From: a virus
Virus record (IMG/VR): IMGVR_UViG_3300009185_000001
Coordinates: 124,001 to 188,000 of that record
DNA length: 64,000 bases
Strand: one strand, 5' to 3'
Made by a program: the position numbers and the translations under genes. Below the pieces are notes generated by a model. The model was not told where the DNA came from. It made no database searches and saw nothing but the letters and a program-made list of their open reading frames with translations. Within the stretch, counting starts at the first letter, position 1, and every line of letters starts with the position of its first letter. Below, in pieces: positions 19,519-62,438 of this stretch.

Positions 19519-19524
19519 GATCTT

Positions 19525-21658: not shown

Positions 21659-21680
21659 GAGAATGGCGGATTGCCTTCTC
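21659..21680 (-). promoter_or_regulatory. Hairpin between gp22 and gp23
   Basis: GAGAATGGC and GCCTTCTC form an 8-bp stem with one bulged base and a 5-base loop in the gap between gp22 and gp23. With no T-run it is more likely an RNA processing or stabilising element ahead of the capsid message than a terminator. Confidence 0.4.
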
Positions 21681-21690
21681 CACCTTGAAA

Positions 21691-43865: not shown

Positions 43866-43872
43866 TTTATTA

Positions 43873-43879
43873 TATTTAT
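43873..43879 (-). promoter_or_regulatory. Late promoter, ATAAATA
   Basis: On the minus strand ATAAATA overlaps the lectin gene stop and ends 7 bases before the ATG at 43865. Confidence 0.55.
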
Positions 43880-44787: not shown

Positions 44788-44796
44788 ACTATGTAA

Positions 44797-44804
44797 TATT
44801 TATA
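44797..44804 (-). promoter_or_regulatory. Late promoter, TATAAATA, for the lectin gene
   Basis: A perfect late box on the minus strand ends 9 bases before the ATG at 44787. Confidence 0.7.
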
Positions 44805-48300: not shown

Positions 48301-50230
48301 TATAAAAGAAAACATCATCCGCTATAGTATCCTCATCCATCCAAACAAACGAAACTTTTTGCTTTGGATTTATTTTAGCACATAATCCTCCCTGAACGAC
48401 ACCATCTATATGAGAAGCACAGTATATAGCATTGGTATCATATATAGAAATAGGATTCCCTCCATCTCTATTTAATAATTGAATAGACCCTGCTCCTAGC
48501 CATGCGGCTTCAATCGGATCTTCTGTTTTTGTATTTAATTTATATATTAAATCCGCATTATTAAAAGAATTTCCTGCAACAGCACCCGTCATTATTTTCG
48601 TAGCATCTACTTCAGAAAGATTAATCGGTAAGCAAGTATCATCTAAAACAGTAATTGGAAGATTTTCATTTAAGGCATCATATTTTAAAATAGGCCATGC
48701 AATATCATTGGTTCCCTCTGATATAGGAAGGTCTGTCTTTTCAAATTTATATAAATATGCTTGTTCTGTTTCACCAGAAAGAGCATCGCTATATGTAGGA
48801 TTTATTCCAGATCCAAAAGATCTTTTTGTCAACGTATCGGCTTCATCTGAAAATTTTTCTGAAAATGCATTGCTATAAACTAAATTCGAATCATTTATGT
48901 ATATAGGAGAGGCAGCAGAGTTTGGAAGAGTATTTGTATAATATTGAGTTAGAATTTCTTTCTTTTGCTCATCCAATAGCTTTAAGTATAAAAAATAATC
49001 ATCATCGTTTAAACTATATCCATCCCAAAGACTTCCTTTTGATGTCAATTTAAATCCAGGATACGGATATATAAATTCTCTCGATGTTTGTGCATTAATC
49101 GTAAACTGCATTTTATCTTCTGCTTTTATTATATTCGGACCTTTAAGCCATGCACCCTCAAGATTTCCTGATTTGTCTGTAAAAAATAAATCAGAATTAG
49201 TATAATCATCACCACCCGCTGCACCAGATTTTACAAACGAGGAATCATTAATAAGAATTGGATTGTATACATTATTAAAAACCGTTTCATCAACAATTCT
49301 GTCACCAGAAGGCCAGTAGAACCAATTATTTCCTTGCTCTAAATCTATATTCATAGTGAAATCTGGTTGATTTATTTCACTTGCCCTAATTGCCGTTAAC
49401 CCATATACAGTTTCACCTAAATATTGTTGTGTTGCAATAATTTCATTATATATTAAATTGCTTGCATTGGCAGACAATGCAGCAGTTGAAAGAGTAGGAA
49501 TTTCTAAAAGATATTGATTAAATAATCTAGACAATGGAGTATCCGCAACTCTTGAAAGATATCTAGTCGAAAGCAATTCCAACACTTCGTTTTCTTCTAA
49601 ACCTTGAAATGGTATTTCATTAACAACCTGTTCTAAATCAACATACTGATTTATTGAAATAGAAGGATCAGAGTCATGATAATTCTGAGAATCGTGCAAT
49701 TCTTCTAATTCTACGAAAAAATTTCCACTAACTGATGAAAGATCAGGAAAATAATTTGATAAAGAAGATATAGGAACCTGTGTAATATAATTCTCGTCTT
49801 TAGTAAATCCTTTTAAAATATATTCATACATCAATGCTTCTAGTCCCATGTTAGAACCTGCCAGATTATAACGAAGCTTTGCATTTTTTACAGACTCTCT
49901 TTTATATGATAATACTTTGCAAACTTCCTTTAGCTTTTTAACGAAATATGGAATTGCAAATATTAATTCTTCATCATTTTTATAATCCAAATCTGCTAGA
50001 AATAAATCTTTTTCTTGCGTACCAAAAAGAAAATTTAAATCTTTTAATAATTGTATGTAATTTTCTTTAATAGCATTGCTATTATTAGAAGTTAATAAAG
50101 TATTACTCCTATACCATTCGCGTAAATATTCTGAATAATATTCCTGTGCGGTATCTGGTTTTAAATTTTTCTGATACTTCAACCAAGTAGGATAAGTTAA
50201 AGGAGATACTGTATTTAATGGTGCTGACAT
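45311..50230 (-). CDS. Giant virion protein with von Willebrand factor A domain, 1639 aa
   Basis: A vWA domain spans about residues 820-1030: VFDISIVIDKSYSQNKDIQK carries the MIDAS D-x-S-x-S motif, followed by VNVQISIISFNENALVATYL, a conserved T in KDTAQTDIYNAL, and NIIILSDGYETI (second MIDAS aspartate). Such domains bind ligands through a metal ion, as in integrins. The N-terminal 200 residues are helical (AIKENYIQLLKDLNFLFGTQ) and resemble a virion attachment domain; the rest is beta-rich. It is transcribed toward the group I intron, whose 5' side begins about 11 bases after the stop. Confidence 0.7.
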   Translation of the reverse strand: MSAPLNTVSPLTYPTWLKYQKNLKPDTAQEYYSEYLREWYRSNTLLTSNNSNAIKENYIQLLKDLNFLFGTQEKDLFLADLDYKNDEELIFAIPYFVKKLKEVCKVLSYKRESVKNAKLRYNLAGSNMGLEALMYEYILKGFTKDENYITQVPISSLSNYFPDLSSVSGNFFVELEELHDSQNYHDSDPSISINQYVDLEQVVNEIPFQGLEENEVLELLSTRYLSRVADTPLSRLFNQYLLEIPTLSTAALSANASNLIYNEIIATQQYLGETVYGLTAIRASEINQPDFTMNIDLEQGNNWFYWPSGDRIVDETVFNNVYNPILINDSSFVKSGAAGGDDYTNSDLFFTDKSGNLEGAWLKGPNIIKAEDKMQFTINAQTSREFIYPYPGFKLTSKGSLWDGYSLNDDDYFLYLKLLDEQKKEILTQYYTNTLPNSAASPIYINDSNLVYSNAFSEKFSDEADTLTKRSFGSGINPTYSDALSGETEQAYLYKFEKTDLPISEGTNDIAWPILKYDALNENLPITVLDDTCLPINLSEVDATKIMTGAVAGNSFNNADLIYKLNTKTEDPIEAAWLGAGSIQLLNRDGGNPISIYDTNAIYCASHIDGVVQGGLCAKINPKQKVSFVWMDEDTIADDVFFYREHSADCPYVKRSPHNYYTNQNYQNPDPFDAKPAWTKCRCKSTKYSPIGHSGEVVTDYNGMADYLFADPQGLGADFAFNTWLDTRGLNPLQSPQFSYYKLDEIFGDKQVGWGSGIWKTGNGSRMVLKTGRRYTYYRTSFRSDLVASTTEQENNASPYLIVNYPYKNIRGITTNTSDNVFDISIVIDKSYSQNKDIQKTIEIVKEFASSLINGNVNVQISIISFNENALVATYLTNDLNVINFAIQDILSQSIKDTAQTDIYNALYLSDYILNTTIYDNNEPDSLFEICNSLNAIIQKKAEFKTNRNVPRSNAIKNIIILSDGYETINVGSAVPYSLELKNKGTQIYAVDIGPNTYFNENMQQIASRNGYFNLQKYLYDGEGNLNNFIQYLASLFSYSKLSIVPTWYKAIRNTFGEWIATNDISDMVLRSGDYLTYIHRSEVSYEGSNNTSFTTPSISFTINMKLNGWDYSTNSFQLTGVGLGYGGKPFWAKSYTKPEENLDQHFEKQLMYFGGQVRFIDGYLPVHQPEISYMTLSNGSFMTYQRRGITNLLWTQPLTLNVLLSSYQWNKIVFYKDFSNLQDIFRNGNTLDLIAYSSEEPSDIILESYSSFIPTKYNYYARNAFTYTQDFYLRNKCLNTFAVFNTAVAVEAFHPYANMNNVFYPTVATISLPSLAKSEKQLGEYMLPENLGVSYWRGRGYSMEVSKDTLTFIDSISAERLFLNTNKFSGRQRGLTKKDQYSPSMITDIDNRWMMESYSSSDAAGRITDTLNNQKFTPYQSKYEIIKRNNLGLCRQNDDFDFWKFPLPSTWDYAEKYPITLRREVLASSYENRIKELLVNKGTMTDWKNDIYGNDYGLFKDPYSKLTATAPLATDPPTPPSTDNCTNNGTLIYSYDSLESTPEEGFSRHKACFITVTIEIDQFGNIINQSQSGNSTNNLNLVEILQTNNLISLIVGIYTFAFEFFGWRKRGTYDNSGNLLTPAGWYSSDTKYNIYGCN

Positions 50231-50236
50231 TTATAA

Positions 50237-50243
50237 TATTTAG
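50237..50243 (-). promoter_or_regulatory. Late promoter, CTAAATA, for the vWA gene
   Basis: On the minus strand TCTAAATA ends 6 bases before the ATG at 50230. Confidence 0.6.
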
Positions 50244-50284: not shown

Positions 50285-50476
50285 ATGGACACATTCACTT
50301 CAGACTATTCTTCTAATATTCCAACTGGAATAACTTCTAATCTTGTTAAAAGCGTTTCAAGAACCGTTAAAAAACCTATTAAGGTTTTAGAATATTCTTC
50401 CAAACATAAACAGGAAATAAAAAATATACAAAATATTTTATTAAAACTTGCGGAAATGTTATCAAAAGTAGATTGA
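50285..50476 (+). CDS. Hypothetical protein, 63 aa
   Basis: Not recognised. The product has a Ser/Thr-rich N terminus and a C-terminal helix (HKQEIKNIQNILLKLAEMLS). It is the first plus-strand gene after the long minus-strand block. Its last codons overlap the -35 box of the next promoter. Confidence 0.55.
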   Translation: MDTFTSDYSSNIPTGITSNLVKSVSRTVKKPIKVLEYSSKHKQEIKNIQNILLKLAEMLSKVD

Positions 50477-50500
50477 CATTTATATTTTTTGCTGTATCTT
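50473..50500 (+). promoter_or_regulatory. Early-type sigma70 promoter, leaderless spacing
   Basis: TTGACA (50473-50478), 16 bases, TATCTT (50495-50500), then 6 bases to the ATG at 50507. Confidence 0.7.
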
Positions 50501-50506
50501 TGAGGG

Positions 50507-51253
50507 ATGGGTAAAGTAATAGAGTTTATAGCAAACACAAAAGAAATGTTGGAGGTTATTGAAAAACCATATCCAGCAATAACAAAACTTCCTGATTGGA
50601 TTAGTAATACTCCTTCGTATATCAATTGTAAAAAATCTGTGGATGAATTTGGTGATCCTACCAGCACCATTAAAAAATGTCTACCCGTAGTAGATGCTAT
50701 GACTGCGGGATATCATATTCCACTTCATTGCGATGTTTGGGTAGAAAATGCAGGACCAAGTGATATTAATATAAAATGGTCTTGGGATACCCTACAAGTA
50801 ATTGATATGCAGAAGCAAGAACAAATGCAAACATATCCCGTTCCAGAAGGATTTTATCCTACATCATTTAAATTTATAAATCCTTGGATTGTAAAGACTC
50901 CTGCGGGGTGGTCTTGTTTGTTTACACATCCACTCCACTATGATGATCTTCCATATAAATGCCTTCCAGCAATTGTAGATACCGATAAGCATCCAATTCC
51001 TGTTAATTTTTTATTCTTTTTAAATAAAAATTTTTCCGGATTGATAGAAAAGGGAACACCGATGATACAAGTCATTCCATTTAAACGAGAAGATTTTAAA
51101 TCTCAATTTTCATTTGATACAGGAAGCTTTAAGCAAAAATGGGAAAAGGCTCATCAAGTATTTTTTGATAGATATAAAAGATTTTTCAGATCTCCCAAGA
51201 AATATGAACAAGGGGATATTAAAAATTGTCCGTTTGCATTTTTACATAAATAA
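50507..51253 (+). CDS. Conserved phage protein, possibly DUF6065-like, 248 aa
   Basis: The pattern KKCLPVVDAMTAGYHIPLHC, DVWVENAG, then SFKFINPWIVKTPAGWSCLF and FTHPLHYDDLPYKCLPAIVD resembles a conserved protein of cyanophages and other T4-like viruses (DUF6065 as I recall it). The paired HPLH and aromatic-rich strands suggest a cupin-type barrel that could bind metal, but this is inference. It has its own early-type promoter with the start codon at the expected transcription start. Confidence 0.55.
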   Translation: MGKVIEFIANTKEMLEVIEKPYPAITKLPDWISNTPSYINCKKSVDEFGDPTSTIKKCLPVVDAMTAGYHIPLHCDVWVENAGPSDINIKWSWDTLQVIDMQKQEQMQTYPVPEGFYPTSFKFINPWIVKTPAGWSCLFTHPLHYDDLPYKCLPAIVDTDKHPIPVNFLFFLNKNFSGLIEKGTPMIQVIPFKREDFKSQFSFDTGSFKQKWEKAHQVFFDRYKRFFRSPKKYEQGDIKNCPFAFLHK

Positions 51254-51260
51254 CTAAATA
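51254..51260 (+). promoter_or_regulatory. Late promoter, CTAAATA
   Basis: CTAAATA ends 5 bases before the ATG at 51266. Confidence 0.6.
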
Positions 51261-51265
51261 TTAAT

Positions 51266-51460
51266 ATGAACCTAACATTAACACATAAAACTGAGTTTAA
51301 ACCCAATTCAAGCTTCATGGAGCGTGAATCTTTGATCAATACCGAAACTCTTAAGATAATGGATACTCTTAGACAAAAAGGGTTCTATCCACTGGAACAT
51401 ACAGTTACAAACAAAAACGATAAGACAGCAACGATCACAGTTGCTTATAGAGCACAATAA
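51266..51460 (+). CDS. Hypothetical protein, 64 aa
   Basis: Not recognised. A compact alpha/beta sequence (ETLKIMDTLRQKGFYPLEHT, then KTATITVAYRAQ). It is preceded by a late promoter at 5 bases and followed directly, without any gap, by the next small gene. Confidence 0.55.
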   Translation: MNLTLTHKTEFKPNSSFMERESLINTETLKIMDTLRQKGFYPLEHTVTNKNDKTATITVAYRAQ

Positions 51461-51592
51461 ATGAGTGCAGGAAAGGGAGATAAACCTAGAAGTTGCTTTT
51501 CAAAGCAGTTTAAAGATAACTATGATTCTATAAAATGGAAGAGCAAAGAATCAGAACATAATCAAAATAATAAAACCAGCAAGAAAAAATAA
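51461..51592 (+). CDS. Small basic phage protein MSAGKGDKPR type, 43 aa
   Basis: A 43-codon frame begins immediately after the preceding stop. The start MSAGKGDKPRSCFSKQFKDN followed by YDSIKWK is typical of a widespread small phage protein family of unknown role beginning MSAGKGDKPRP. The C terminus is lysine- and asparagine-rich. Probably cotranscribed with the 64-aa gene. Confidence 0.65.
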   Translation: MSAGKGDKPRSCFSKQFKDNYDSIKWKSKESEHNQNNKTSKKK

Positions 51593-51598
51593 TTTTCA

Positions 51599-51742
51599 AT
51601 GTTAAAAGATTTTATTTATACTATAAAGTTTTTCTTTTGGTATGTTTTTTTTATAATAAAGAAACTTCCGACATTGACATACCTGTTCTTGTATAAAGAA
51701 TATCTTTATATTAGAGTAATGTTTTTAGAAATTTTTAAATAA
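51599..51742 (+). CDS. Small hydrophobic protein, 47 aa
   Basis: A 47-codon frame encodes a protein with one strong hydrophobic segment (FIYTIKFFFWYVFFIIKKL, about residues 5-23) and a second weaker one, so a membrane peptide is likely. It sits 2 bases before the next start. Its reality rests on compact gene packing; function unknown. Confidence 0.45.
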   Translation: MLKDFIYTIKFFFWYVFFIIKKLPTLTYLFLYKEYLYIRVMFLEIFK

Positions 51743-51744
51743 TC

Positions 51745-51924
51745 ATGTACAAAATTAAATATAAAATCGCAGAGTTTATTGTTAATATTCAATTGTTTTT
51801 CAGTAAGAAATATTCTTATCAATATTATCAGAATTTGTATCTTTTGGAAGACATAGTGAAAGAAGGATATATAGAAAAAATTTCTAAACAAACAAAAACC
51901 GATTGGACTAATTTTTACAATTAG
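51745..51924 (+). CDS. Hypothetical protein, 59 aa
   Basis: A 59-codon frame encoding a Tyr/Lys-rich product (KYSYQYYQNLYLLEDIVKEG, then KTDWTNFYN). It follows the hydrophobic gene by 2 bases. Not recognised; the C-terminal half looks like an ordered helix. Confidence 0.45.
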   Translation: MYKIKYKIAEFIVNIQLFFSKKYSYQYYQNLYLLEDIVKEGYIEKISKQTKTDWTNFYN

Positions 51925-52112
51925 GTAAAAACAGGTACAAAGTTGATCTAAAAAGTACTTTAAAATAGGAAAAAAGTTCCTAAAACTGGCATAAAACTTG
52001 CTATAGGTACATATTTTTTTCAATTTTTTAAAACCACTTTTGTTTATAATCAGGGACTTATATAATTTAATATAAAATTGAATTAAAATAAGAGACTTTT
52101 CTTTGTTTTAAA

Positions 52113-52120
52113 TATAAATA
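52113..52120 (+). promoter_or_regulatory. Late promoter, TATAAATA
   Basis: A perfect late box ends 5 bases before the ATG at 52126. The 188 bases before it (51925-52112) hold no gene that I can support. Confidence 0.75.
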
Positions 52121-52125
52121 GATAT

Positions 52126-52404
52126 ATGAAATTTGATTTACTTGTAGAAAGTTTGCTAAACGAAGCCGCTCGTTGTAAGGGTCCAACTAAAAAAACCCAA
52201 TCTGACCGAAAGGGTAAGAAATACATGCAGTGTGTAAAAAATCCAAAAGGCAAGGGATATAAAAGAGTTCATTTTGGACAAGCAGGAGTAAAGGTAACAG
52301 GAAAGTCTGGAAACACAAAACGAAAAAAATCATTTCGTGCAAGACACAAATGCTCCACTGCAAAACCGGGCACGGCCAAATATTTAAGTTGTAAAAATTG
52401 GTAG
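52126..52404 (+). CDS. Basic cysteine-containing virion-type protein, 92 aa
   Basis: The product opens with MKFDLLVESLLNEA, resembling phage head-internal leader peptides ending in x-E, followed by a strongly basic body (RCKGPTKKTQSDRKGKKYMQ, KRKKSFRARHKCSTAKPGTA) with five cysteines. Similar small basic proteins occur in T4-like cyanophages. A perfect late promoter lies 5 bases upstream. DNA-binding internal head protein is a reasonable inference. Confidence 0.6.
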   Translation: MKFDLLVESLLNEAARCKGPTKKTQSDRKGKKYMQCVKNPKGKGYKRVHFGQAGVKVTGKSGNTKRKKSFRARHKCSTAKPGTAKYLSCKNW

Positions 52405-52415
52405 GTTAAAAATGA

Positions 52416-53117
52416 ATGAAAACAAAAAGGCTTATAAAAGAAGAAATTCTTCATATAAAAAACCGTTTAAATGCTATAAGCCTGAAATGTGAGAGTTCAA
52501 GCGATATATGTAGTTTTTTTGATTATGAAATAAGCCCTAAATTGAAAAAAGCATGTAATTCCGACTCTAGTTTTTTAGATTATTATGCTACTTCCAAATC
52601 ACTTTTAGAAATTTTTGGCCAGCTTGCAGTCCTTCGACCAGAAAAATCATATGTTTTAGATGTAATGCAAAATGTTGAAAAAAGATTAGATGATATTATA
52701 GAAAATAATGTAGAAAGAAATTATCTTATGAATTATTCTTTATTTTTTAATTATATTTTATCTCGTAGAATTTTGTATAGTCTAGATACATTAATGAATA
52801 GTGATAAATTTAAAGAAACTTTTTTAAATATAGAAAAAATAGAAAAAATGATTACTCCAAGAAATTTTGACAGTTTTAAAACAATTATGTGGTATAATTT
52901 GTTGATATTATTTGGTATTTATGATGATAAAGATCCTGCTGGTTCTTTCAAAAAATCTGTTGAAAACTTTTTAACTTGTTTAGAATCTTTCGGTCCTTCT
53001 ATTCAAAATAATACAAGGGATTATTATAAAATGCTCAGAAATGAAGAGGAATACCACATACCACCTGATAAAAAAGAATTGTATAAAAGACATGATGGTA
53101 ATGATGATATGTTTTAA
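52416..53117 (+). CDS. Hypothetical helical protein, 233 aa
   Basis: Not recognised. Almost all helical, with a basic N terminus (MKTKRLIKEEILHIKNRLNA), a middle of alternating hydrophobic helices and a charged C terminus. There is no catalytic or membrane motif. It is 11 bases after the preceding basic-protein gene and probably belongs to the same late transcript. Confidence 0.55.
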   Translation: MKTKRLIKEEILHIKNRLNAISLKCESSSDICSFFDYEISPKLKKACNSDSSFLDYYATSKSLLEIFGQLAVLRPEKSYVLDVMQNVEKRLDDIIENNVERNYLMNYSLFFNYILSRRILYSLDTLMNSDKFKETFLNIEKIEKMITPRNFDSFKTIMWYNLLILFGIYDDKDPAGSFKKSVENFLTCLESFGPSIQNNTRDYYKMLRNEEEYHIPPDKKELYKRHDGNDDMF

Positions 53118-53127
53118 AATTTTTTAA

Positions 53128-53155
53128 TTGACATACTACGTTTTTATTATATCAT
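53128..53155 (+). promoter_or_regulatory. Early-type sigma70 promoter, leaderless spacing
   Basis: TTGACA (53128-53133), 16 bases, TATCAT (53150-53155), then 6 bases to the ATG at 53162. Confidence 0.75.
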
Positions 53156-53161
53156 ATTGTT

Positions 53162-54037
53162 ATGAGCAAAGTATTAATTTTAGGAAAAGGTTTCGTTGGT
53201 AACTATTTAAACAAACGACTGTCGGTTAAAAATAAACTTCACATCTCTAAAAAAGATGTGGACTACTCTGATTATAATACATTTTTTAATTTCTTAAAAA
53301 AGCATAAATATCCAGCACCAGAAGAACAAAGAATTGAGCATGTTATAAACTGTTCTGGATATACGGGATCTCCAAACGTAGATGCCTGTGAAGATAACAA
53401 AGAATCTTGTTATCACTACAATGTAACAATTCCATTATACATCACAGAAGCATGTAATCGTTTAAGCATTCCAATAACACATATCGGAAGTGGATGTATA
53501 TATGATGGGTATGAAAAATTTTATAGCGAAGAAGACATTCCGAACTTTGGAGCAGATTGTCATTATTCTTCGTTTTACTCAAAGACAAAAGATGCCTTTG
53601 AAAAACTTTCTGCTCGCTTTGATAGGTCTGTGTTGAGAATTAGGATGCCATTCTGCGAAGAAGTTAATCCTAAAAATTATATAAACAAACTCCTCAATTA
53701 TGATACTTTGATATCTAAACCAAATTCATTAACATCTTTATATGATTTGAGTTTATTTGTTAATAAGTTTATATCAAGCGGATTAAGTGGAGTTTATAAT
53801 ATTGTAAATGATGGATCCATCGACTCCATAGAAATTACAAGAATTCTTAAGACACATGGAGTTGATAATCCTAATTGGAAATTCGTTTCAATTAAAGATT
53901 TATCAACTAAAACACAAAGAAGTAACTGTATTCTCTCTACAGAAAAAATTGAAAAGAATTTTGGAAAGCTTCCAAATGTCACAGAAAGCCTAGAATGGGC
54001 AGTAAAATATTTTGCGGAAAATTTAAAAAAACAATGA
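53162..54037 (+). CDS. SDR-type NAD(P)-dependent sugar reductase/epimerase, RmlD-like
   Basis: The 291-aa product has a Rossmann start (SKVLILGKGFVGNYL, G-x-G-x-x-G), HVINCSGYTGSPNVDACED as in dTDP-4-dehydrorhamnose reductases, ITHIGSGCIYDG, and the catalytic YSKTK (Y-x-x-x-K, about residue 140). The substrate is probably a nucleotide sugar, so it may change host surface sugars or make a modified-base or glycan precursor; the precise reaction cannot be told. It has its own promoter. Confidence 0.8.
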   Translation: MSKVLILGKGFVGNYLNKRLSVKNKLHISKKDVDYSDYNTFFNFLKKHKYPAPEEQRIEHVINCSGYTGSPNVDACEDNKESCYHYNVTIPLYITEACNRLSIPITHIGSGCIYDGYEKFYSEEDIPNFGADCHYSSFYSKTKDAFEKLSARFDRSVLRIRMPFCEEVNPKNYINKLLNYDTLISKPNSLTSLYDLSLFVNKFISSGLSGVYNIVNDGSIDSIEITRILKTHGVDNPNWKFVSIKDLSTKTQRSNCILSTEKIEKNFGKLPNVTESLEWAVKYFAENLKKQ

Positions 54038-54363
54038 AATTTAACAATCTTTTTAAAAAATATCTGAAAGAAACTCAATTAGAATTTGATTTCAAATATC
54101 CCTCGAAAGAAGAAAAATCAGAAGAGAAGAAAAAACTTCCAGAACCTTCCTTGAAGGATAAGTCTTTGTCAGATTCAAAATTAAGAACCTTCACCGTATT
54201 TTGGGATAGAAATACATATGAAACAACTGCCATTTCAAGGCAAGAAGCAATTTCTCATATTGCTGCTAGATTGTCAAAAGGGTCAACCAAACCTATCGGA
54301 GTTCTAAAAAATGAAATGGCAAATTCATTAGTAAGAGACGAAAAGTGGAATGTAAAATATTAA
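54034..54363 (+). CDS. Hypothetical protein with head-leader-like N terminus, 109 aa
   Basis: The ATG at 54034 overlaps the reductase stop (ATGA). The start MKFNNLFKKYLKETQLEFDF resembles MKFDLLVESLLNEA of the basic virion protein. After a Lys/Glu-rich linker the C-terminal half (LRTFTVFWDRNTYETTAISR) forms a small alpha/beta domain. Function unknown; co-transcribed with the reductase. Confidence 0.55.
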   Translation: MKFNNLFKKYLKETQLEFDFKYPSKEEKSEEKKKLPEPSLKDKSLSDSKLRTFTVFWDRNTYETTAISRQEAISHIAARLSKGSTKPIGVLKNEMANSLVRDEKWNVKY

Positions 54364-54373
54364 AAGATTTTTC

Positions 54374-54402
54374 TTGATATTTCCAGAAATATCTCATACA
54401 GT
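54374..54402 (+). promoter_or_regulatory. Early-type sigma70 promoter, leaderless spacing
   Basis: TTGATA (54374-54379), 17 bases, TACAGT (54397-54402), then 6 bases to the ATG at 54409. Confidence 0.65.
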
Positions 54403-54408
54403 AAATCC

Positions 54409-54552
54409 ATGTTCACATTCATGGTAATTGCCACTTCAGAAGAAGAACCGTTTCTAGTAGAAGCAAACACTCAAGAAGAAGCACAGACAAAAGCATTAGA
54501 ACTCTTGGGCTGGCACGTAATCAAAACAGAAGATGATTCAGAATCTGAATAA
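54409..54552 (+). CDS. Small acidic protein, 47 aa
   Basis: A 47-codon frame encodes MFTFMVIATSEEEPFLVEAN and a helix EEAQTKALELLGWHVIKTED. The beta-alpha-beta layout with a conserved-looking GW is like small ferredoxin-fold phage proteins. A promoter with start-codon spacing supports expression. Function not known. Confidence 0.6.
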   Translation: MFTFMVIATSEEEPFLVEANTQEEAQTKALELLGWHVIKTEDDSESE

Positions 54553-54560
54553 GATTTTTA

Positions 54561-54589
54561 TTGACAGTAACAAAACCTTTTAATACTAT
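54561..54589 (+). promoter_or_regulatory. Early-type sigma70 promoter, leaderless spacing
   Basis: TTGACA (54561-54566), 17 bases, TACTAT (54584-54589), then 6 bases to the ATG at 54596. Confidence 0.75.
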
Positions 54590-54595
54590 ATAAAA

Positions 54596-54955
54596 ATGCC
54601 AAGAGGTAGACCAAGAAAAAACATTTCTACAAAGAATCTAATTGATAAAAGTATTGTGGGTGTACGCAAGAAACGTACCAAGTCTATTGTTCCAAGTATT
54701 GTGAAAAGACCAGTGGAAGAATTGACTACTAAAGAACGCGAAGAAAGAGAAAAATGGTTGGATAGCTTCTTGCCCAAGATTGATCTCAATAAGAAAACTG
54801 TTGTCCTTGATTTGAATAAGAATGTAGAAGCATGTAAAGAACATACCAAAGGTGCTTGCGTTCGCCCTGACATATATCTAGACTATGGATGTAATCACTG
54901 CTCGCTATTTGAGAATTGTGCATGTCGCCTAAAAAAAGTTAAAAAAAATTATTGA
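54596..54955 (+). CDS. AT-hook-like, cysteine-tailed protein, 119 aa
   Basis: The N terminus MPRGRPRKN contains the AT-hook core GRPRK, which binds the minor groove of AT-rich DNA. A charged helical middle (TTKEREEREKWLDSFLPKID) is followed by a C-terminal cluster of six cysteines (ACKEHTKGACVRPDIYLDYG, then CNHCSLFENCACR), probably a zinc site. A role as a DNA-binding regulator in early or middle infection is inferred from motifs and promoter type. Confidence 0.6.
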   Translation: MPRGRPRKNISTKNLIDKSIVGVRKKRTKSIVPSIVKRPVEELTTKEREEREKWLDSFLPKIDLNKKTVVLDLNKNVEACKEHTKGACVRPDIYLDYGCNHCSLFENCACRLKKVKKNY

Positions 54956-54980
54956 CTTTACCGGAAATTTGAAATATAGT
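54952..54980 (+). promoter_or_regulatory. Early-type sigma70 promoter at the start of the RNA region
   Basis: TTGACT (54952-54957) overlaps the stop of the AT-hook gene; 17 bases later is TATAGT (54975-54980). Transcription should begin near 54987, just before the ATG of a 32-codon frame and the twin hairpins. Confidence 0.7.
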
Positions 54981-54987
54981 CCTATAC

Positions 54988-55086
54988 ATGATTTCGAATG
55001 ACAAAGCTTGGTTGGTAAATAATAAGAGTTTCTGTGGTGGTTACTCTTATTATTTCGGAAGTCCTACCTTCTGTGGTGGTAGGTAG
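54988..55086 (+). CDS. Possible 32-aa peptide overlapping twin hairpins
   Basis: The frame MISNDKAWLVNNKSFCGGYS continues YYFGSPTFCGGR. It starts 7 bases after the -10 box, as do real genes nearby, but the frame spans two perfect hairpins whose repeated loop yields the repeated FCGG. It may be a leader peptide, or the hairpins may be the real product. Confidence 0.35.
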   Translation: MISNDKAWLVNNKSFCGGYSYYFGSPTFCGGR

Positions 55087-55093
55087 GACTTCC
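55021..55093 (+). ncRNA. Twin hairpins with the same 12-base loop
   Basis: Hairpin A has a 9-bp perfect stem AATAAGAGT/ACTCTTATT and the loop TTCTGTGGTGGTT. Hairpin B (55057-55093) has a 12-bp perfect stem GGAAGTCCTACC/GGTAGGACTTCC and the loop TTCTGTGGTGGTA. The stems differ but the loops share TTCTGTGGTGGT, so the loop is the likely functional part, for example a protein- or RNA-binding site. Confidence 0.7.
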
Positions 55094-55170
55094 TTAAATT
55101 TGTGAGTTGGTTCCCGATGAGCCAATGGGACTGGGAATACTCGGTCGAAACCAAAATCGGAAATTGATAT

Positions 55171-55377
55171 TTGACATTTTAATTTTTTGGTAGATAGAGT
55201 AGTAATACCTATCCCTGTGGACTCGAAAGAGGAGTGATATCTGAAAAGAAGCGTTTCGAGAGTATTCGCACTCACTTACCAAATAATATTTTAAACCCGC
55301 CATGCCTCTGCTTGCAAGAGTAGTTTCTGAAGGCCAAGGCAACTAAGCAAGTCATGCATAATTTGGCGGGTGTTTTT
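55171..55377 (+). ncRNA. Probable independent structured RNA with promoter and terminator
   Basis: TTGACA at 55171 with TAGAGT 18 bases later (55195-55200) could start a transcript of about 175 bases. It ends in a strong hairpin, ACCCGCC (55295-55301) with GGCGGGT (55365-55371), followed by GTTTTT. Inside the hairpin CATG and GCTTGC find partners further 3', making a long stem. No convincing protein frame exists. Family unknown. Confidence 0.5.
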
Positions 55378-55413
55378 ATCAAGCGCAGATGCTATTTAAA
55401 AAGCTCTACCGCG

Positions 55414-55456
55414 ACAGATGACAATGCAATGTTTCCGGAAACAACATTTAATCTGT
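55414..55456 (+). ncRNA. Long hairpin in the RNA region
   Basis: ACAGAT (55414-55419) pairs with ATCTGT (55451-55456), enclosing AATG/CATT and GTTTCC/GGAAAC. It is preceded by TTTAAAAAGCTC, a spacer-like motif that recurs before two other structured elements at 55810 and 55870. Confidence 0.45.
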
Positions 55457-55514
55457 AGGGAACTTCTCCTTAATAATCAAAAAAGAATGAGAAGTCTTGG
55501 TAATAAATTTAAAT

Positions 55515-55601
55515 GGGTTACTATACCGTTAAAGAGGCGGTCCAGACTGTAAATCTGGCGTGTTCTGCACTCACTAGGAGCATTACCTAGGTAGCCCACC
55601 A
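55515..55601 (+). tRNA. tRNA-Tyr (GTA), unusual T-loop
   Basis: Acceptor stem GGGTTAC/GTAGCCC, D-stem ACCG/CGGT, anticodon stem CCAGA/TCTGG with loop CTGTAAA (anticodon GTA), a short variable arm GTG/CAC, T-stem CTAGG/CCTAG, discriminator A and encoded CCA. The long variable region fits tRNA-Tyr. The T-loop reads AGCATTA instead of TTCNANN, so tertiary pairing with the D-loop may be altered. Confidence 0.8.
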
Positions 55602-55646
55602 TTTTAATATAGAAAGAATAGATAGTGTTAGTAATAAATTTTGACT

Positions 55647-55742
55647 GGGATGTTGGTCTAGAAAATCATCATCTAAGGAGTGGAACTGGACGTGGAGAAC
55701 TGGTAATTAGTAGGGACACAATTCATATAAGCCCTACATCCT
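55647..55742 (+). ncRNA. Structured RNA, possibly tRNA-like
   Basis: GGGATGT (55647-55653) can pair with ACATCCT (55736-55742) and an inner GTAGGG/CCCTAC hairpin lies at its 3' end. The layout recalls an acceptor plus T-arm, but the loop is 16 bases and no anticodon arm is clear, so it is not called a tRNA. Confidence 0.3.
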
Positions 55743-55816
55743 ATTTATAGGTACGGAGATGACCGTGAATTGCGTTTCACAGGATAGAGAAATCTATAAC
55801 CCCTTTAGCTTTAAAA

Positions 55817-55861
55817 AGCACACCAGTTTATTTTTGATAAGTCGGACGGGGAATGTGTGCT
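55817..55861 (+). ncRNA. Hairpin element following TTTAAAAAGC
   Basis: AGCACAC (55817-55823) pairs with GTGTGCT (55855-55861) around an inner TTAT/ATAA stem. It follows the same TTTAAAAAGC spacer as two other elements in this region. Confidence 0.4.
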
Positions 55862-55873
55862 GTGCATTCTTAA

Positions 55874-55975
55874 AAAGCTCACCGTTGCAGACGTATCACC
55901 AGACCCGATTAGGCAGGGGGTAACAAGTAACCTTCGTCCAACGTGTTAAAAACACGGTAGCCAATGAAGAGCTTT
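55874..55975 (+). ncRNA. Structured RNA of about 100 bases closed by AAAGCTC/GAGCTTT
   Basis: AAAGCTC (55874-55880) pairs with GAGCTTT (55969-55975). Inside are CGTGTT/AACACG (55942-55956) and other GC-richer segments that stand out from the AT-rich background. Lying among tRNA genes, it resembles in placement the stable RNAs C and D of the T4 tRNA cluster; family unknown. Confidence 0.45.
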
Positions 55976-56015
55976 CTGGAATTGATATTTAAAATTATAT
56001 TGTAAATAGTTTATA

Positions 56016-56088
56016 TGCGGGTTACAGTTCTGGCGAACTGAGGGGTTTCATAAGCCTCTTTAGGTGGATTCGATTTCCACACCCGCAA
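56016..56088 (+). tRNA. tRNA-Met (CAT)
   Basis: Acceptor TGCGGGT/ACCCGCA, D-stem CAGT/ACTG, anticodon loop TTCATAA with stem GGGGT/GCCTC (one internal and one closing G-T pair), T-arm GTGGA-TTCGATT-TCCAC, discriminator A, no encoded CCA. A lysidine-modified Ile acceptor is an alternative for CAT tRNAs. Confidence 0.8.
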
Positions 56089-56096
56089 TTTTTAAT

Positions 56097-56229
56097 TCCT
56101 CATTAGACGAATTGGTAAAGTCACGGGACTGTGGGAGAAGCAGGTTAGCGTAATATGAGTTCGATTCTCATAACTCCAAGTCTAATCCCGCGCAGCAATG
56201 CATTCTTCGTTCAAGTCGAAGATGAGGAG
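56097..56229 (+). tRNA. tRNA-Ser (GCT) with a 50-nt insertion in the anticodon loop
   Basis: Both halves fit one tRNA: acceptor TCCTCAT/ATGAGGA (7 Watson-Crick pairs), D-stem GAC/GTC with loop GG, anticodon stem CGGGA/TCCCG, variable arm GCA/TGC, T-arm CTTCG-TTCAAGT-CGAAG and discriminator G, which is the serine type. Joining G34 at 56131 to C35 at 56182 gives the loop CTGCTAA with anticodon GCT. The intervening 50 bases are far too short for a group I intron, so how, or whether, the RNA matures is unknown. Confidence 0.65.
56132..56181 (+). other. 50-nt insertion inside tRNA-Ser
   Basis: The segment forms its own hairpin: GGAG/CTCC enclosing TATGAG-TTCGATT-CTCATA, the latter looking exactly like a tRNA T-arm. 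It may be a remnant of another tRNA's 3' half or a small intron of unknown type. It interrupts positions 34/35, the same place as the group I intron in the neighbouring tRNA-Leu, and contains the ATG of a 58-aa frame. Confidence 0.55.
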
Positions 56230-56331
56230 CATTTTAGAATAGATAAAAAGGTTCTCGATGATCCAGATAAAAAAAATCGAAAATACTTCTTGACCTTTTC
56301 AGAAAAAATTGTTAGAGTATTTGAAGATTAG
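56155..56331 (+). CDS. 58-aa protein frame overlapping the tRNA-Ser 3' half
   Basis: The frame starts in the tRNA insertion and runs through the 3' half of tRNA-Ser, then continues EEHFRIDKKVLDDPDKKNRK and YFLTFSEKIVRVFED. The part after the tRNA looks like a true protein in composition. Either the gene gained its N terminus from the tRNA or two functions share these bases. Start is uncertain. Confidence 0.45.
   Translation: MSSILITPSLIPRSNAFFVQVEDEEHFRIDKKVLDDPDKKNRKYFLTFSEKIVRVFED
56290..56318 (+). promoter_or_regulatory. Possible sigma70 promoter before tRNA-Leu
   Basis: TTGACC (56290-56295), 17 bases, TAGAGT (56313-56318). It lies inside the 58-aa frame, 75 bases before tRNA-Leu. Confidence 0.4.
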
Positions 56332-56393
56332 TAAAGGTTATCTGAACCTTGTAAAAAAATCAGAAAAGATTTTTGATAGAATAGAATTTATAT

Positions 56394-56736
56394 GGTCGAG
56401 TGGTGGAATGGCAGACACAACGGACTTAGAGAAATTTGAGCTTTGATTGGGAAACCTTTCAAATGTAACTTGTCAAATTCGGTGAAGGGTTTAAACTCCT
56501 AATACCGAGCCAAGCATCGAAAGATGAAGGTGTAGAGACTTGACGGCAAGAACCTAAAGCGAAAGCAATGGTTAAGGTAAAGTCCAGACTACAAACAGAT
56601 TGAGAAAAGTAAATCCCGAAAGGATTGAACAGAGCGGTAAATACGCTGACTGACGAATCTGGTAACGAAAGTTATAGTAGTAAGAAAATCCGTTGCCAGT
56701 AATGGCGTGAGGATTCGAGTTCCTCCTCGACTACCA
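56394..56736 (+). tRNA. tRNA-Leu (TAA) interrupted by a group I intron
   Basis: Exons are 56394-56427 and 56685-56736. Joined they give acceptor GGTCGAG/CTCGACT, a Leu-type D-arm (GTGGAATGGCAGACAC), anticodon stem ACGGA/TCCGT with loop CTTAAAA (anticodon TAA), variable arm, T-arm GAGGA-TTCGAGT-TCCTC, discriminator A and encoded CCA. TTA is a common codon in the window's genes, so the tRNA should matter for late translation. Confidence 0.92.
56428..56684 (+). other. Group I intron (IC3-like) in the tRNA-Leu anticodon loop
   Basis: The 257-nt intron lies between U34 and A35, the insertion site of the tRNA-Leu(UAA) introns of cyanobacteria and chloroplasts. Core elements: Q AATACCGAGCCAAGC (56501-56515), R GGTGTAGAGACTTGACGG (56529-56546), S AAGGTAAAGTCCAGACTAC (56574-56592), an internal guide TTTGAG pairing with exon CTT through a U-G pair, and a terminal G at 56684. 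It has no ORF. Confidence 0.9.
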
Positions 56737-56744
56737 ATTTAAAA

Positions 56745-56838
56745 GCAAGGTTAGTGTAACTGGAAGCACCGACAGACTTATAATCTGTGTATCCTAGATT
56801 TGGATCGAGCGTGGGTTCAATTCCCACACCTTGCACCA
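56745..56838 (+). tRNA. Class II tRNA with anticodon TAT (Ile codon ATA)
   Basis: Acceptor GCAAGGT/ACCTTGC, D-stem GTG/CAC, anticodon stem ACAGA/TCTGT with loop CTTATAA (anticodon TAT), a 22-base variable region with stem ATCC/GGAT, T-arm GTGGG-TTCAATT-CCCAC, discriminator A and encoded CCA. A long variable arm is normal for Leu, Ser and Tyr but not for Ile, so the amino acid it receives is uncertain. Confidence 0.8.
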
Positions 56839-56861
56839 TTTTGTAAGTAGTTGATTTAGAT

Positions 56862-56933
56862 AGGGGTGAAGCATATTGGTCATGCGCTCTGCTCATAACG
56901 GAAGGAAAGTGGGTTCGATCCCCATCGCCCCTA
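56862..56933 (+). tRNA. tRNA with anticodon CAT (Met or Ile2)
   Basis: Acceptor AGGGGTG/CGCCCCT, D-stem GCAT/ATGC, anticodon loop CTCATAA with a weak stem (one mismatch), T-arm GTGGG-TTCGATC-CCCAT, discriminator A. It differs from the CAT tRNA at 56016. One of the two may be a tRNA-Ile2 read after lysidine modification. Confidence 0.75.
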
Positions 56934-56945
56934 CATTTTTCATAA

Positions 56946-57030
56946 GCACTTGTAACTCAACGCTCTTCTAAAGCGTCCTTTAACGAGTAATTGGATATAA
57001 GGTCTGTTGGTTCGAATCCAACCAAGTGCG
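56946..57030 (+). tRNA. tRNA-Arg (TCT)-like gene with rearranged D and anticodon arms
   Basis: Acceptor GCACTTG/CAAGTGC, T-arm GTTGG-TTCGAAT-CCAAC and discriminator G are normal, and ACGCT-CTTCTAA-AGCGT is a good anticodon arm for TCT (AGA codons). However ACTC and GAGT, which should form the D-stem, flank the anticodon arm, and the D-loop-like AATTGGATA follows it. It may be a pseudogene or an unusual functional fold. Confidence 0.55.
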
Positions 57031-57071
57031 CTTAATAAACAAAATACAGGTTCAAATCTCATTTCAATACA

Positions 57072-57188
57072 ATGCCCCACAAAAAACCCAAACCCTCCCA
57101 CAAAGAAATTCTAAAATATCTGGAATTTCTTTCCTCAATCAAAAAAGTAAAGCCTTCTAAAACTCTCTTGACACCCAAGAAAAACTAA
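57072..57188 (+). CDS. Small basic protein, 38 aa
   Basis: A 38-codon frame encodes MPHKKPKPSHKEILKYLEFL then SSIKKVKPSKTLLTPKKN. The basic, proline-containing ends flank one short helix. It follows the tRNA-Arg-like gene and its stop overlaps the spacer of the next promoter. Not recognised. Confidence 0.5.
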   Translation: MPHKKPKPSHKEILKYLEFLSSIKKVKPSKTLLTPKKN

Positions 57189-57196
57189 CATACCAT
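57168..57196 (+). promoter_or_regulatory. Early-type sigma70 promoter
   Basis: TTGACA (57168-57173), 17 bases, TACCAT (57191-57196), then 8 bases to the ATG at 57205. Confidence 0.7.
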
Positions 57197-57204
57197 CTAA
57201 CATC

Positions 57205-57513
57205 ATGGATATACTAAGAATCCTCCCAAAGGGAGAAAACATTGAAAACATAATAGAATCATTTAGAAGTACTTTAATCAATTCTAAATGTGAACATTCT
57301 GCCAAGGTGTCGGTTTTCGTAGTAACAAAAGAAAAGTTTGAAAGGTCATGGAATTTAATATATCCAAACAATGAAGATGCCTTGTTGGAATCCTTGAAGA
57401 AAGAATATTTGGAATTGATTAACCAGAGACGAGTAACCGTAACAGTGGCAGAGGAAGAGAATTATTTTTTAAAAAACATTAAAAAAAATATTGACGAGAA
57501 CGATATTTTTTAA
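57205..57513 (+). CDS. Hypothetical protein, 102 aa
   Basis: Not recognised. An alpha/beta protein with NIIESFRSTLINSKCEHSAK then KVSVFVVTKEKFERSWNLIY and a helical C terminus. It is the first of a run of small early-type genes. Its stop lies in the spacer of the following promoter. Confidence 0.6.
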   Translation: MDILRILPKGENIENIIESFRSTLINSKCEHSAKVSVFVVTKEKFERSWNLIYPNNEDALLESLKKEYLELINQRRVTVTVAEEENYFLKNIKKNIDENDIF

Positions 57514-57519
57514 TACATT
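57491..57519 (+). promoter_or_regulatory. Early-type sigma70 promoter, leaderless spacing
   Basis: TTGACG (57491-57496), 17 bases, TACATT (57514-57519), then 6 bases to the ATG at 57526. Confidence 0.7.
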
Positions 57520-57525
57520 CAAATT

Positions 57526-57690
57526 ATGGAAGAAAACTACATCAAACTAATAAGCAAATACGGAAATCAAAAAGTGGAATTCACAATTGATCCCGACATT
57601 GACATGACAGTAATGGTATCAACTCTGGAATGCTTCTTGAAAGCTATTGGATACCAATTCAATACACTGGAGGAATGGATTAACGAATAA
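57526..57690 (+). CDS. Hypothetical protein, 54 aa
   Basis: A 54-codon frame encoding MEENYIKLISKYGNQKVEFT, then a helix (MVSTLECFLKAIGYQF) and NTLEEWINE. The compact beta-beta-alpha layout and promoter support a real gene. Not recognised. It is followed at 1 base by two membrane proteins. Confidence 0.6.
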   Translation: MEENYIKLISKYGNQKVEFTIDPDIDMTVMVSTLECFLKAIGYQFNTLEEWINE

Positions 57691-59359: not shown

Positions 59360-59367
59360 TATAAATA
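59360..59367 (+). promoter_or_regulatory. Late promoter, TATAAATA
   Basis: A perfect late box ends 8 bases before the ATG at 59376 and justifies that start over the in-frame TTG at 59346. Confidence 0.75.
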
Positions 59368-59375
59368 TTATTATT

Positions 59376-59720
59376 ATGAAAACAAAAGATACAATACTAT
59401 TAGAGAAAGCCTATAAAAAAGTTTTGAAGGAAGCCGAAGTAGGATCTTATGGAGAACGTATGAATGCACAGGGAACACTTTCTAATGCTAATCCTGCGGA
59501 AGTTTATGCAAAATTTGAAGAACTTACAGATAACTTTTACGCCAGTTTAAAAAAGGTAAAAACCCTTTTAGATAGTGAGGTTTGGAAAAAATTAGCGAAC
59601 AATGGAGGGTTTAATGATATTTTGGATCATGAAGAGGGTGACGATTATGGTTCAGGTTCACATCCATTCGATTTTGACGACTGGGTAAGCCAAGTTGACG
59701 TTAAAGGTTATTATTTCTAA
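59376..59720 (+). CDS. Leader-family late protein B, putative internal head protein, 114 aa
   Basis: Begins MKTKDTILLEKAYKKVLKEA, the shared leader with the L-L-E site at residues 8-10 and a possible second site K-E-A. The body has a helical segment (YAKFEELTDNFYASLKKVKT) and an acidic C terminus (HPFDFDDWVSQVDV). No known family. Perfect late promoter directly upstream and terminator downstream. Confidence 0.65.
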   Translation: MKTKDTILLEKAYKKVLKEAEVGSYGERMNAQGTLSNANPAEVYAKFEELTDNFYASLKKVKTLLDSEVWKKLANNGGFNDILDHEEGDDYGSGSHPFDFDDWVSQVDVKGYYF

Positions 59721-59790: not shown

Positions 59791-60543
59791 TTAAATAAAA
59801 GTAAAATATTCTTTAAATTTAATACTACTAATTCCCTCTTCGTATTTGTGTAGAGGTTCTTTCATAAGTTCTTTATCCTCTTGTTCCTCTTTTAATTTAT
59901 AAGTCAAATTCAAAAGTTCTTTGCTACTTTTAATCCTTCCAAATTCTTGCGGAGATATTATTTCAATGTTTGGATTTAATTGCTTTAAGGTTTTAATTAT
60001 ATTAACATACTTCTGACTATTACTCGGCGGGGGCGTACCCCTTCCAATCCATTCTTGATTGGTTGTCTTGGGAACACTGGCAAAGACAACCTCGGCAGTA
60101 TTAAAATCCATAATACCTTCATCATAATGAAGAGATTCATCATATCCATTGAAGTCTTTATCAATGCCATGCAATCTTTCGTCCTTCAATCGCGGACTTG
60201 TTGCAATTCGAGAACCATCTGGAAGTTGCTTGGTATATGCATCAAAGTCATATAATTCTTTTATTTTACCAAATCCAACTATTATTATACTATTGTTTTC
60301 GTCTCTATATACCGAATTGCTTCTTATGGTTGAAACACAGATTTCAGCCTTTTTTCCGATTTGTTTCAAATTAACCAAATCATTTGCATTCTCTTCTGTC
60401 CAATAAAAGGAATGGATGAATATTCCATGATACAGACGATTATATTCCTCTGCCTTTTTTTGGCCTACTTTCATCATGTTTGAATTCGGTTGAATGTTTT
60501 CTTTATAAAGATTTTCTAAAAATACTTGATCTTTTCCGCGCAT
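59791..60543 (-). CDS. Leader-family late protein C, putative internal head protein, 250 aa
   Basis: Begins MRGKDQVFLENLYKENIQPN, matching the leader with F-L-E before the predicted cut. The body contains RLYHGIFIHSFYWTEENAND, IVGFGKIKELYDFD and a C-terminal helix. The YHG followed by later aromatic and acidic residues recalls phage ADP-ribosyltransferase-like proteins, a weak resemblance only. A perfect late promoter lies 6 bases upstream. Confidence 0.6.
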   Translation of the reverse strand: MRGKDQVFLENLYKENIQPNSNMMKVGQKKAEEYNRLYHGIFIHSFYWTEENANDLVNLKQIGKKAEICVSTIRSNSVYRDENNSIIIVGFGKIKELYDFDAYTKQLPDGSRIATSPRLKDERLHGIDKDFNGYDESLHYDEGIMDFNTAEVVFASVPKTTNQEWIGRGTPPPSNSQKYVNIIKTLKQLNPNIEIISPQEFGRIKSSKELLNLTYKLKEEQEDKELMKEPLHKYEEGISSIKFKEYFTFI

Positions 60544-60549
60544 ATGATA

Positions 60550-60557
60550 TATTTATA
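60550..60557 (-). promoter_or_regulatory. Late promoter, TATAAATA
   Basis: On the minus strand a perfect late box ends 6 bases before the ATG at 60543. The HNH gene begins only 10 bases away on the other strand. Confidence 0.75.
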
Positions 60558-61443: not shown

Positions 61444-61818
61444 ACCAAATGATCGGTAGTTTGTTTCTATGAAATTAATAAAATTTTGAATATTTGTATT
61501 ATCAAAATCTTTTATATTCTCGACATTTTGTAGCATACTCATCAAATTATTAAGAGTCTGCTTTAATTCATTATTATTATTAAAACTTTCAAATCTTCCA
61601 CTATTAGCCATGTCCTGTAAAATTCTAAAAAAGTGATTAAATAAATCCCCTTCTCTAGAACTCCCTAAGTTTTTTGATTTGATTTCATTTAATATGGGTT
61701 CTAAAACATCCATAAGTTCCATAAACAATCTTTGAAGATCTTGAATACCACTTCCATAAAAATTTTCAAAAACTTTTTCGTAGGCTTGTTCTAATAATAT
61801 AGTATCGTTTGTTTTCAT
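61438..61818 (-). CDS. Leader-family late protein D, putative internal head protein, 126 aa
   Basis: Begins MKTKDTILLEQAYEKVFENF; its first 16 residues differ from those of the next gene at one position. The body is helical with methionine- and asparagine-rich segments (QDLQRLFMELMDVLEPILNE). No family recognised. Its stop overlaps the convergent HNH stop. Late promoter 8 bases upstream. Confidence 0.65.
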   Translation of the reverse strand: MKTNDTILLEQAYEKVFENFYGSGIQDLQRLFMELMDVLEPILNEIKSKNLGSSREGDLFNHFFRILQDMANSGRFESFNNNNELKQTLNNLMSMLQNVENIKDFDNTNIQNFINFIETNYRSFGL

Positions 61819-61826
61819 ATTTTATA

Positions 61827-61834
61827 TATTTATA
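61827..61834 (-). promoter_or_regulatory. Late promoter, TATAAATA
   Basis: On the minus strand a perfect late box ends 8 bases before the ATG at 61818. The surrounding 30 bases are repeated almost exactly before the gene at 62422. Confidence 0.75.
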
Positions 61835-61867: not shown

Positions 61868-62422
61868 TTAATCTAAAGGAGCATTCGGTTTATCTTTAAA
61901 ATAAGAAGCCATGCCCTTACTTCTATTTGCCAACATATCAATGTATCTTTCAACATTGTATATTGTTTCCTCATCCTCAATCGGCCCTGTAATAATATCA
62001 TTAGGACGAATATCCAAACCACCCCTATAAGAACCCTCTTCCCCTTCTGAATTATAAATTTTATACTTAATTCCGGTTCTGGTATCAACATCATTAGTAG
62101 CAGGTGCTATTTCCTTCTGACCCATATCCCTTTGCTCATCCTCTACAAATATTTTACCCGCAGATAAGTCTGCAATTTTATATAACCTTGGATTATATCC
62201 ATCTTGTTTAGAATGAATATACCAAGAACCTTCTTTTAAATTTTCATTCTCAATAGCATCATAAAAATTTTGCTTCGGTAAGGAAGATACATTATCTCCC
62301 AATGCTTTTTTCAAAGGAGAACTAAAATCTGCACCCTTAAAGAATTCTTCAGAAGTTGAATTATCTTTCCCAAGAACCTTTTCATAGGCTTGCTCTAATA
62401 GTATTGTATCTTTTGTTCTCAT
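61868..62422 (-). CDS. Leader-family late protein E, putative internal head protein, 184 aa
   Basis: Begins MRTKDTILLEQAYEKVLGKD with the L-L-E site. The body is mixed alpha/beta (NLKEGSWYIHSKQDGYNPRL, then YRGGLDIRPNDIITGPIEDE) and may be a small enzyme or effector, but no catalytic motif is recognised. The shared upstream sequence with gene D suggests a duplicated promoter-plus-leader cassette joined to different bodies. Confidence 0.65.
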   Translation of the reverse strand: MRTKDTILLEQAYEKVLGKDNSTSEEFFKGADFSSPLKKALGDNVSSLPKQNFYDAIENENLKEGSWYIHSKQDGYNPRLYKIADLSAGKIFVEDEQRDMGQKEIAPATNDVDTRTGIKYKIYNSEGEEGSYRGGLDIRPNDIITGPIEDEETIYNVERYIDMLANRSKGMASYFKDKPNAPLD

Positions 62423-62430
62423 ATTTTATA

Positions 62431-62438
62431 TATTTATA
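62431..62438 (-). promoter_or_regulatory. Late promoter, TATAAATA
   Basis: On the minus strand a perfect late box ends 8 bases before the ATG at 62422. Confidence 0.75.

Follow-up and report, generated by a model that had tools for sequence, protein, structure and literature searches.

In Deinococcus-Thermus and Actinobacteria, leaderless genes whose -10 box adjoins the open reading frame (ORF) are well established (PMC12340547, PMC3160421). Among phages, most middle and late transcripts of the Thermus phage phiYS40 were found experimentally to be leaderless, according to the summary in PMC3594737. Its host, Thermus, belongs to a phylum rich in leaderless genes, and a phage-induced shift of IF2/IF3 that favours leaderless mRNA has been suggested for phiYS40. 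T4 late transcription is a textbook case of a separate promoter and ribosome-binding site. T4 late promoters use gp55 and a TATAAATA-type box (PMC2988020). In the T4 stretches analysed, the box is mostly 27-28 nucleotides (nt) away from the ATG, and the interval contains a Shine-Dalgarno site. The subject here is a 64,000-nt window of viral DNA, bases 124001-188000 of a 202,880-nt IMG/VR virus record. The phage from which it comes possesses a gp55 homologue and the same type of box, but the box is found 5-9 nt before the ATG, with no Shine-Dalgarno site. It appears that much of the transcription of this phage, in early and late units alike, starts at or within a few bases of start codons, which would give messenger RNAs (mRNAs) that begin at or nearly at AUG and are initiated in the leaderless manner. 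A probability of roughly 0.82 is assigned to this reading.

The known systems resemble this arrangement only in part. As in the window, the leaderless genes of Deinococcus-Thermus and Actinobacteria have TAnnnT a few nt before the ORF and no Shine-Dalgarno site. However, these are cellular genomes, the -35 box is dispensable in Deinococcus, and there is no second promoter class for a phage sigma factor. In contrast to phiYS40, the window phage is of a T4-like lineage, its sigma70-type and gp55-type classes are both flush with the ATG, and its leaderless messages are predicted from sequence alone. Leaderless genes and phiYS40 are thus known already, and T4-type late promoters on start codons would be a new variant. 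No report of them was found in the open-access literature, most subscription journals being outside the scope of that search.

The window contains T4-type structural and replication genes, including those for a head protein, a baseplate wedge, a clamp loader, and a head protease. The closest cultured matches of its gp23 (490 amino acids) are cyanophages, at ~35% identity, and a megablast search with the 50-60 kb region of the window matched no phage record. Relatives of gp23 are present on hundreds of IMG/VR contigs, of which the best 80 were retained. A divergent gp23 with many uncultured relatives fits the uncultivated Far-T4 phages (PMC4360716), which are also aquatic and carry T4 core genes. 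The source is an uncultured T4-like phage, probably of the Far-T4 group. Promoters flush with start codons appear to be undescribed for this group, and the words “promoter” and “leader” are absent from the available text of PMC4360716.

In a sigma70-type promoter the -10 hexamer ends at -7, and 6 further nt put the ATG at +1. The original prediction listed eight early-type promoters with about this spacing. All eight were present with the gaps claimed when the sequence was read again:

50473..50509, plus strand: early promoter TTGACA-N16-TATCTT, gap 6, ATG 50507 (DUF6065-like protein)
53128..53164, plus strand: early promoter TTGACA-N16-TATCAT, gap 6, ATG 53162 (RmlD/epimerase family protein)
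54374..54411, plus strand: early promoter TTGATA-N17-TACAGT, gap 6, ATG 54409 (47-codon ORF)
54561..54598, plus strand: early promoter TTGACA-N17-TACTAT, gap 6, ATG 54596 (119-amino-acid protein)
54952..54980, plus strand: early promoter TTGACT-N17-TATAGT, gap 7, before 54988 (31-codon ORF)
57168..57207, plus strand: early promoter TTGACA-N17-TACCAT, gap 8, ATG 57205 (102-amino-acid protein)
57491..57528, plus strand: early promoter TTGACG-N17-TACATT, gap 6, ATG 57526 (54-amino-acid protein)
19516..19552, minus strand: early promoter TTGAAT-N16-TATAAT, gap 6, ATG 19518 (dUTPase)

Seven of these sites fall inside the range given for them, 50473-57526, and the 19518 site lies outside it. The gaps had been described as leaving no room for a Shine-Dalgarno site. 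One of them, at 50507, does hold GAGGG, which is too near the ATG for normal Shine-Dalgarno use. The sites had also been taken as eight gene starts, but 54988 is probably a structured RNA, its 31-codon ORF overlying two perfect 13-bp hairpins. Homologues of the short ORFs 54409 (47 codons) and 57526 (54 codons) were sought in relatives and none were found. The C-terminal part of the 54596 protein is conserved in three related genomes, G001, G002, and G006.

The spacing was then counted without gene calls. A strict early site was defined as TTGAC-N16..18-TAnnnT with an ORF-opening ATG nearby. Across the whole 202,880-nt record, the ATG lies 6-7 nt past the -10 box in 15 of 31 strict sites (binomial P=1.3e-14, for uniform positions). 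Pooling six relatives gives 27 of 87 strict sites with gap 6-7 (P=4e-19). The original prediction had set beforehand, as its refutation test, the lack of a genome-wide excess of the 6-7 spacing; the excess is strong both in this genome and in the pooled relatives. These counts also bear on chance as the explanation. The genome has a content of guanine plus cytosine of 32%, at which both ATG and TAnnnT, even taken by itself, occur often, and the eight sites had been picked by eye. However, 30 Markov-resampled genomes contained a mean of 0.17 gap-6-7 sites, with a maximum of 1, against the 15 observed, and reversed patterns gave zero in seven relatives. Chance was rejected on these two results and its probability is negligible.

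Conservation of the spacing was examined at single genes. Orthologues of the 50507 gene are present in G001, G002, G005, and G006 (46-61% protein identity). All four have a TTGA-type -35 box, a TATTAT -10 box, and exactly 6 nt to the ATG. The dUTPase (19518) orthologues of several relatives have a -10-like box ~6 nt from the ATG. The promoter of the 53162 orthologues is not clearly conserved in most of the relatives. Viral contigs were also searched for exact-consensus early sites. Among the matches listed, which yield no rate, ORFs of at least 30 codons were opened by 85 of 120 sites at gap 6 and by 40 of 118 at gap 14. These matches suggest that the gap-6 arrangement extends beyond this clade.

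The boxes could also belong to a Bacteroidota host. In that case they would be the -33/-7 promoters (TTG / TAnnTTTG) of such a host and would be followed by ordinary leaders. Homology has been used to place one Far-T4 relative with marine Bacteroidetes (PMC7198788), and the 50507 promoter happens to match TTG-N19-TATCTTTG. The other seven -10 boxes, however, do not match TAnnTTTG, and a genome-wide scan for TTG-N18..22-TAnnTTTG gave no peak near start codons. This explanation is highly improbable, and promoters of the Bacteroidota type were rejected as a general motif. The missing peak counts against the promoter type and not against a Bacteroidota host itself. The host guesses published for the Far-T4 group disagree (PMC7198788, PMC4360716). 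Two scans of GTDB genomes, with gp23 and UvsX, found no relative, and a gene for bS21, which was sought in the phage genome, is not encoded.

The original prediction placed the leaderless class among early genes. The early class does show the geometry, but it is not limited to that class, and T4-type late boxes are flush as well. At G000:106588-107226 the phage encodes a protein homologous to the T4 late sigma factor gp55 (E=3e-21 with a three-sequence profile). Late-type boxes in the window include the following:

60543..60557, minus strand: T4-late-type box TATAAATA, gap 6, gene 59791-60543
61818..61834, minus strand: T4-late-type box TATAAATA, gap 8, gene 61438-61818
62422..62438, minus strand: T4-late-type box TATAAATA, gap 8, gene 61868-62422
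59360..59378, plus strand: T4-late-type box TATAAATA, gap 8, gene 59376-59720
50230..50243, minus strand: late-type box CTAAATA, gap 6, gene 45311-50230 (1639 amino acids)
43865..43880, minus strand: late-type box ATAAATA, gap 7, gene 43689-43865
44787..44804, minus strand: T4-late-type box TATAAATA, gap 9, gene 43876-44787
3535..3550, plus strand: late-type box CTAAATA, gap 6, gene 3548-6934 (1128 amino acids)
51254..51268, plus strand: late-type box CTAAATA, gap 5, gene 51266-51460
52113..52128, plus strand: T4-late-type box TATAAATA, gap 5, gene 52126-52404

The T4 late box begins at -13 (PMC2988020); if its 8 nt are followed by 5 more, the ATG falls at +1. Thus, with 6 nt in the early class and 5 nt in the late class, each class has the offset that gives an ATG at +1. 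In this genome, 14 of 61 boxes of the NATAAATA form have an ORF-opening ATG 5-8 nt after them. The corresponding counts are 18 of 44 in G001, 21 of 47 in G002, and 38 of 57 in G003, and 0 of 23 in two T4 stretches. Over seven genomes, the distance from late box to ATG is almost never below 5 nt, peaks at 5-7 nt, and then falls. Such a sharp lower edge is expected if the start codon cannot precede the transcription start. The commonest late gaps in this genome are 6 and 8, which is looser than the early gaps, and some late messages here may carry a leader of one or a few nt. As a separate observation, the neighbouring genes 61438-61818 and 61868-62422 (minus strand) are identical over their upstream 45 bases, late-type box included. 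This identity suggests a recent duplication of the promoter or gene start.

A gene whose upstream neighbour is oppositely oriented needs its own promoter. Flush boxes are present at 45% of divergent genes and at 8% of tightly stacked genes in this genome (P=1.5e-6), and at 67% and 17%, respectively, in G003. When the same comparison was made in G004 and G006, the difference was not significant. The concentration of flush boxes at divergent genes indicates that they are promoters and not translation signals. Positions were also analysed with genes called by codon statistics alone, in which promoters and ribosome sites had no influence on the starts. In this gene set TTGACA peaks at -35 and TAAATA at -12 relative to the start codon. 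The first genes of units are enriched for the late box, and TAAATA at -12 is among the top positional k-mers.

The TAAATA or TATAAT beside the ATG might instead be a translation signal, an A/T-rich unstructured start region. Start regions of low-GC phages are generally A/T-rich, and AATT and TAAT at -4 from the start codon are also enriched in the codon-statistics gene set. Against this, TTGACA at -35 has no translational role, and the late box is the T4 late consensus in a phage that encodes gp55. The box is missing from most stacked genes, although these are translated as well. In the Pelagibacter phage HTVC008M the box is also found 18 nt upstream of the start, and there a Shine-Dalgarno site separates the two. 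A translation signal is therefore very improbable as the explanation.

Shine-Dalgarno cores are near chance in this genome (23 genes, versus 13.6 in shuffles); the first 50 kb of T4 (1-50 kb) contain 44, versus 6.7 in shuffles. Downstream cistrons of operons are likewise nearly without Shine-Dalgarno sites. With such upstream regions, the flush boxes could be real promoters that are secondary or coincidental, transcription starting mainly from other promoters further upstream and giving A/T-rich leaders free of Shine-Dalgarno sites. Many genes without a flush box do have A/T-rich upstream regions of this kind, and such regions have been reported for Bacteroidetes and Cyanobacteria (PMC3160421). 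Main starts further upstream would, however, predict a variable distance from box to ATG. The observed distance is constant in the early and the late class and is preserved at the 50507 orthologues, and flush boxes concentrate at the first genes of units. Transcription mainly from further upstream is unlikely.

With transcription starting at the start codons, as preferred here, early units would be read by the host sigma70-type RNA polymerase from TTGACA-N16/17-TAnnnT, with the -10 box ending 6-7 nt before the ATG. Late units would be read by polymerase carrying the phage gp55-like sigma factor, from TATAAATA-type boxes whose end is 5-8 nt away from the start codon. Messages of either class would carry AUG at, or almost at, their 5' end and would be translated from it with no Shine-Dalgarno site, presumably through 70S (leaderless) initiation. 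The transcription starts, the early or late timing, and the leaderless translation are predicted here from the geometry, its statistics and conservation, and the presence of gp55. The capsid gene would be an exception with a structured leader:

21625..21700, minus strand: leader preceding gp23, the major capsid gene (20152-21624); it contains a hairpin and the purine-rich element AAAGGA

In the relatives examined, too, the capsid gene follows a leader that combines a hairpin with a purine-rich element, which frequently reads AGGAG. Single-fold z-scores range from -0.3 to -4.5, so that only some of the leaders have a clear hairpin. Among the relatives (L023-L102) the stem-loop of the gp23 leader is highly variable in sequence, and a ATCCATAGGAG-like motif after it is kept in many. 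This leader is a candidate conserved leader RNA. Because it is retained, the host ribosomes are probably able to use Shine-Dalgarno sites, which makes the near-absence of such sites elsewhere more striking. A phage entirely insensitive to Shine-Dalgarno sites was considered at first and then given up, since gp23 keeps a leader of that type. Likewise, the claim of a whole class without leaders agrees with the near-chance Shine-Dalgarno counts, but it is not universal.

Several points weigh against the preferred reading. The capsid gene keeps its leader, in which many relatives have an AGGA/AGGAG-type element. The distance of some late boxes is 8-13 nt, and their messages would have leaders of 3-8 nt and not of zero. 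The early-class excess is weak in G001 (1 of 11), as is the late-class excess in G005 (6 of 34). In addition, the binomial test presumes uniform ATG positions, and the resampling control covers the early class only.

Isolated phages allow a comparison with cultured systems. In HTVC008M, TATAAATAGTA boxes are found 5 nt before the ATG at about ten genes in the first 50 kb. A few of its late boxes are farther away, at 18 nt, and are followed by a Shine-Dalgarno site ahead of the ATG. HTVC008M therefore shares flush late boxes with the window phage but is a mixed system, in which many genes are led by a Shine-Dalgarno site and the box has this second position. The Rhodothermus phage RM378 (L167, L168) has TTATTTAAA-N2-AAA directly before the ATG at about ten genes, in a place that matches the late box. 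This motif is a candidate late promoter of RM378. Flush boxes were also sought in 50 kb of the cyanophage S-SSM5, and none were found there.

The T4-type late promoter thus appears to be shifted onto the start codon in a large environmental clade and in the cultured HTVC008M. There is a somewhat better than even chance that this has a wider meaning. In the aquatic and widespread T4-like lineage of the window, and in Pelagibacter and possibly Rhodothermus T4-like phages, gp55 promoters would have merged with the translation start, and in the window lineage the host-sigma promoters would have done so too. Most first cistrons would be leaderless, with the capsid gene among the few that retain a Shine-Dalgarno-type leader, and the phages may tilt host ribosomes towards leaderless initiation. 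The cultured HTVC008M and RM378 make leaderless translation in phage infection directly testable. Flush boxes also provide a simple rule for locating the true start codons in these genomes. It will be interesting to determine how a preference for leaderless messages arose in these phages and in their hosts.

The promoter before 54988 leads to a different kind of locus, and what it drives is probably a structured RNA together with a cluster of transfer RNA (tRNA) genes:

55017..55093, plus strand: two perfect hairpins of 13 bp each, whose stems differ but whose 12-nt loop TTCTGTGGTGGT is shared (inverted repeats, direct repeat)

The hairpins lie inside and just 3' of the 31-codon ORF of 54988, and their fold z-score is -5.2. 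They sit between the early promoter at 54952..54980 and the tRNA cluster downstream. Judged from this structure and position, 54988 is probably not a leaderless protein gene but either a gene for an RNA or the beginning of the tRNA transcript. The twin hairpins are possibly a small RNA that is recognised through its loops. Within 55515-56230 (plus strand) there are several more tRNA-like stretches, apparently Tyr and His when read by eye, with long untranslated sequence between them. These stretches were not called by ARAGORN, or by Rfam at the gathering threshold. A group I intron is present at 56390-56738 (plus strand; Rfam RF00028, 50.5 bits). It apparently splits a tRNA-Leu(UAA) gene in the anticodon loop, and this tRNA was not reported by ARAGORN. 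In this placement it would resemble the intron of cyanobacterial trnL.

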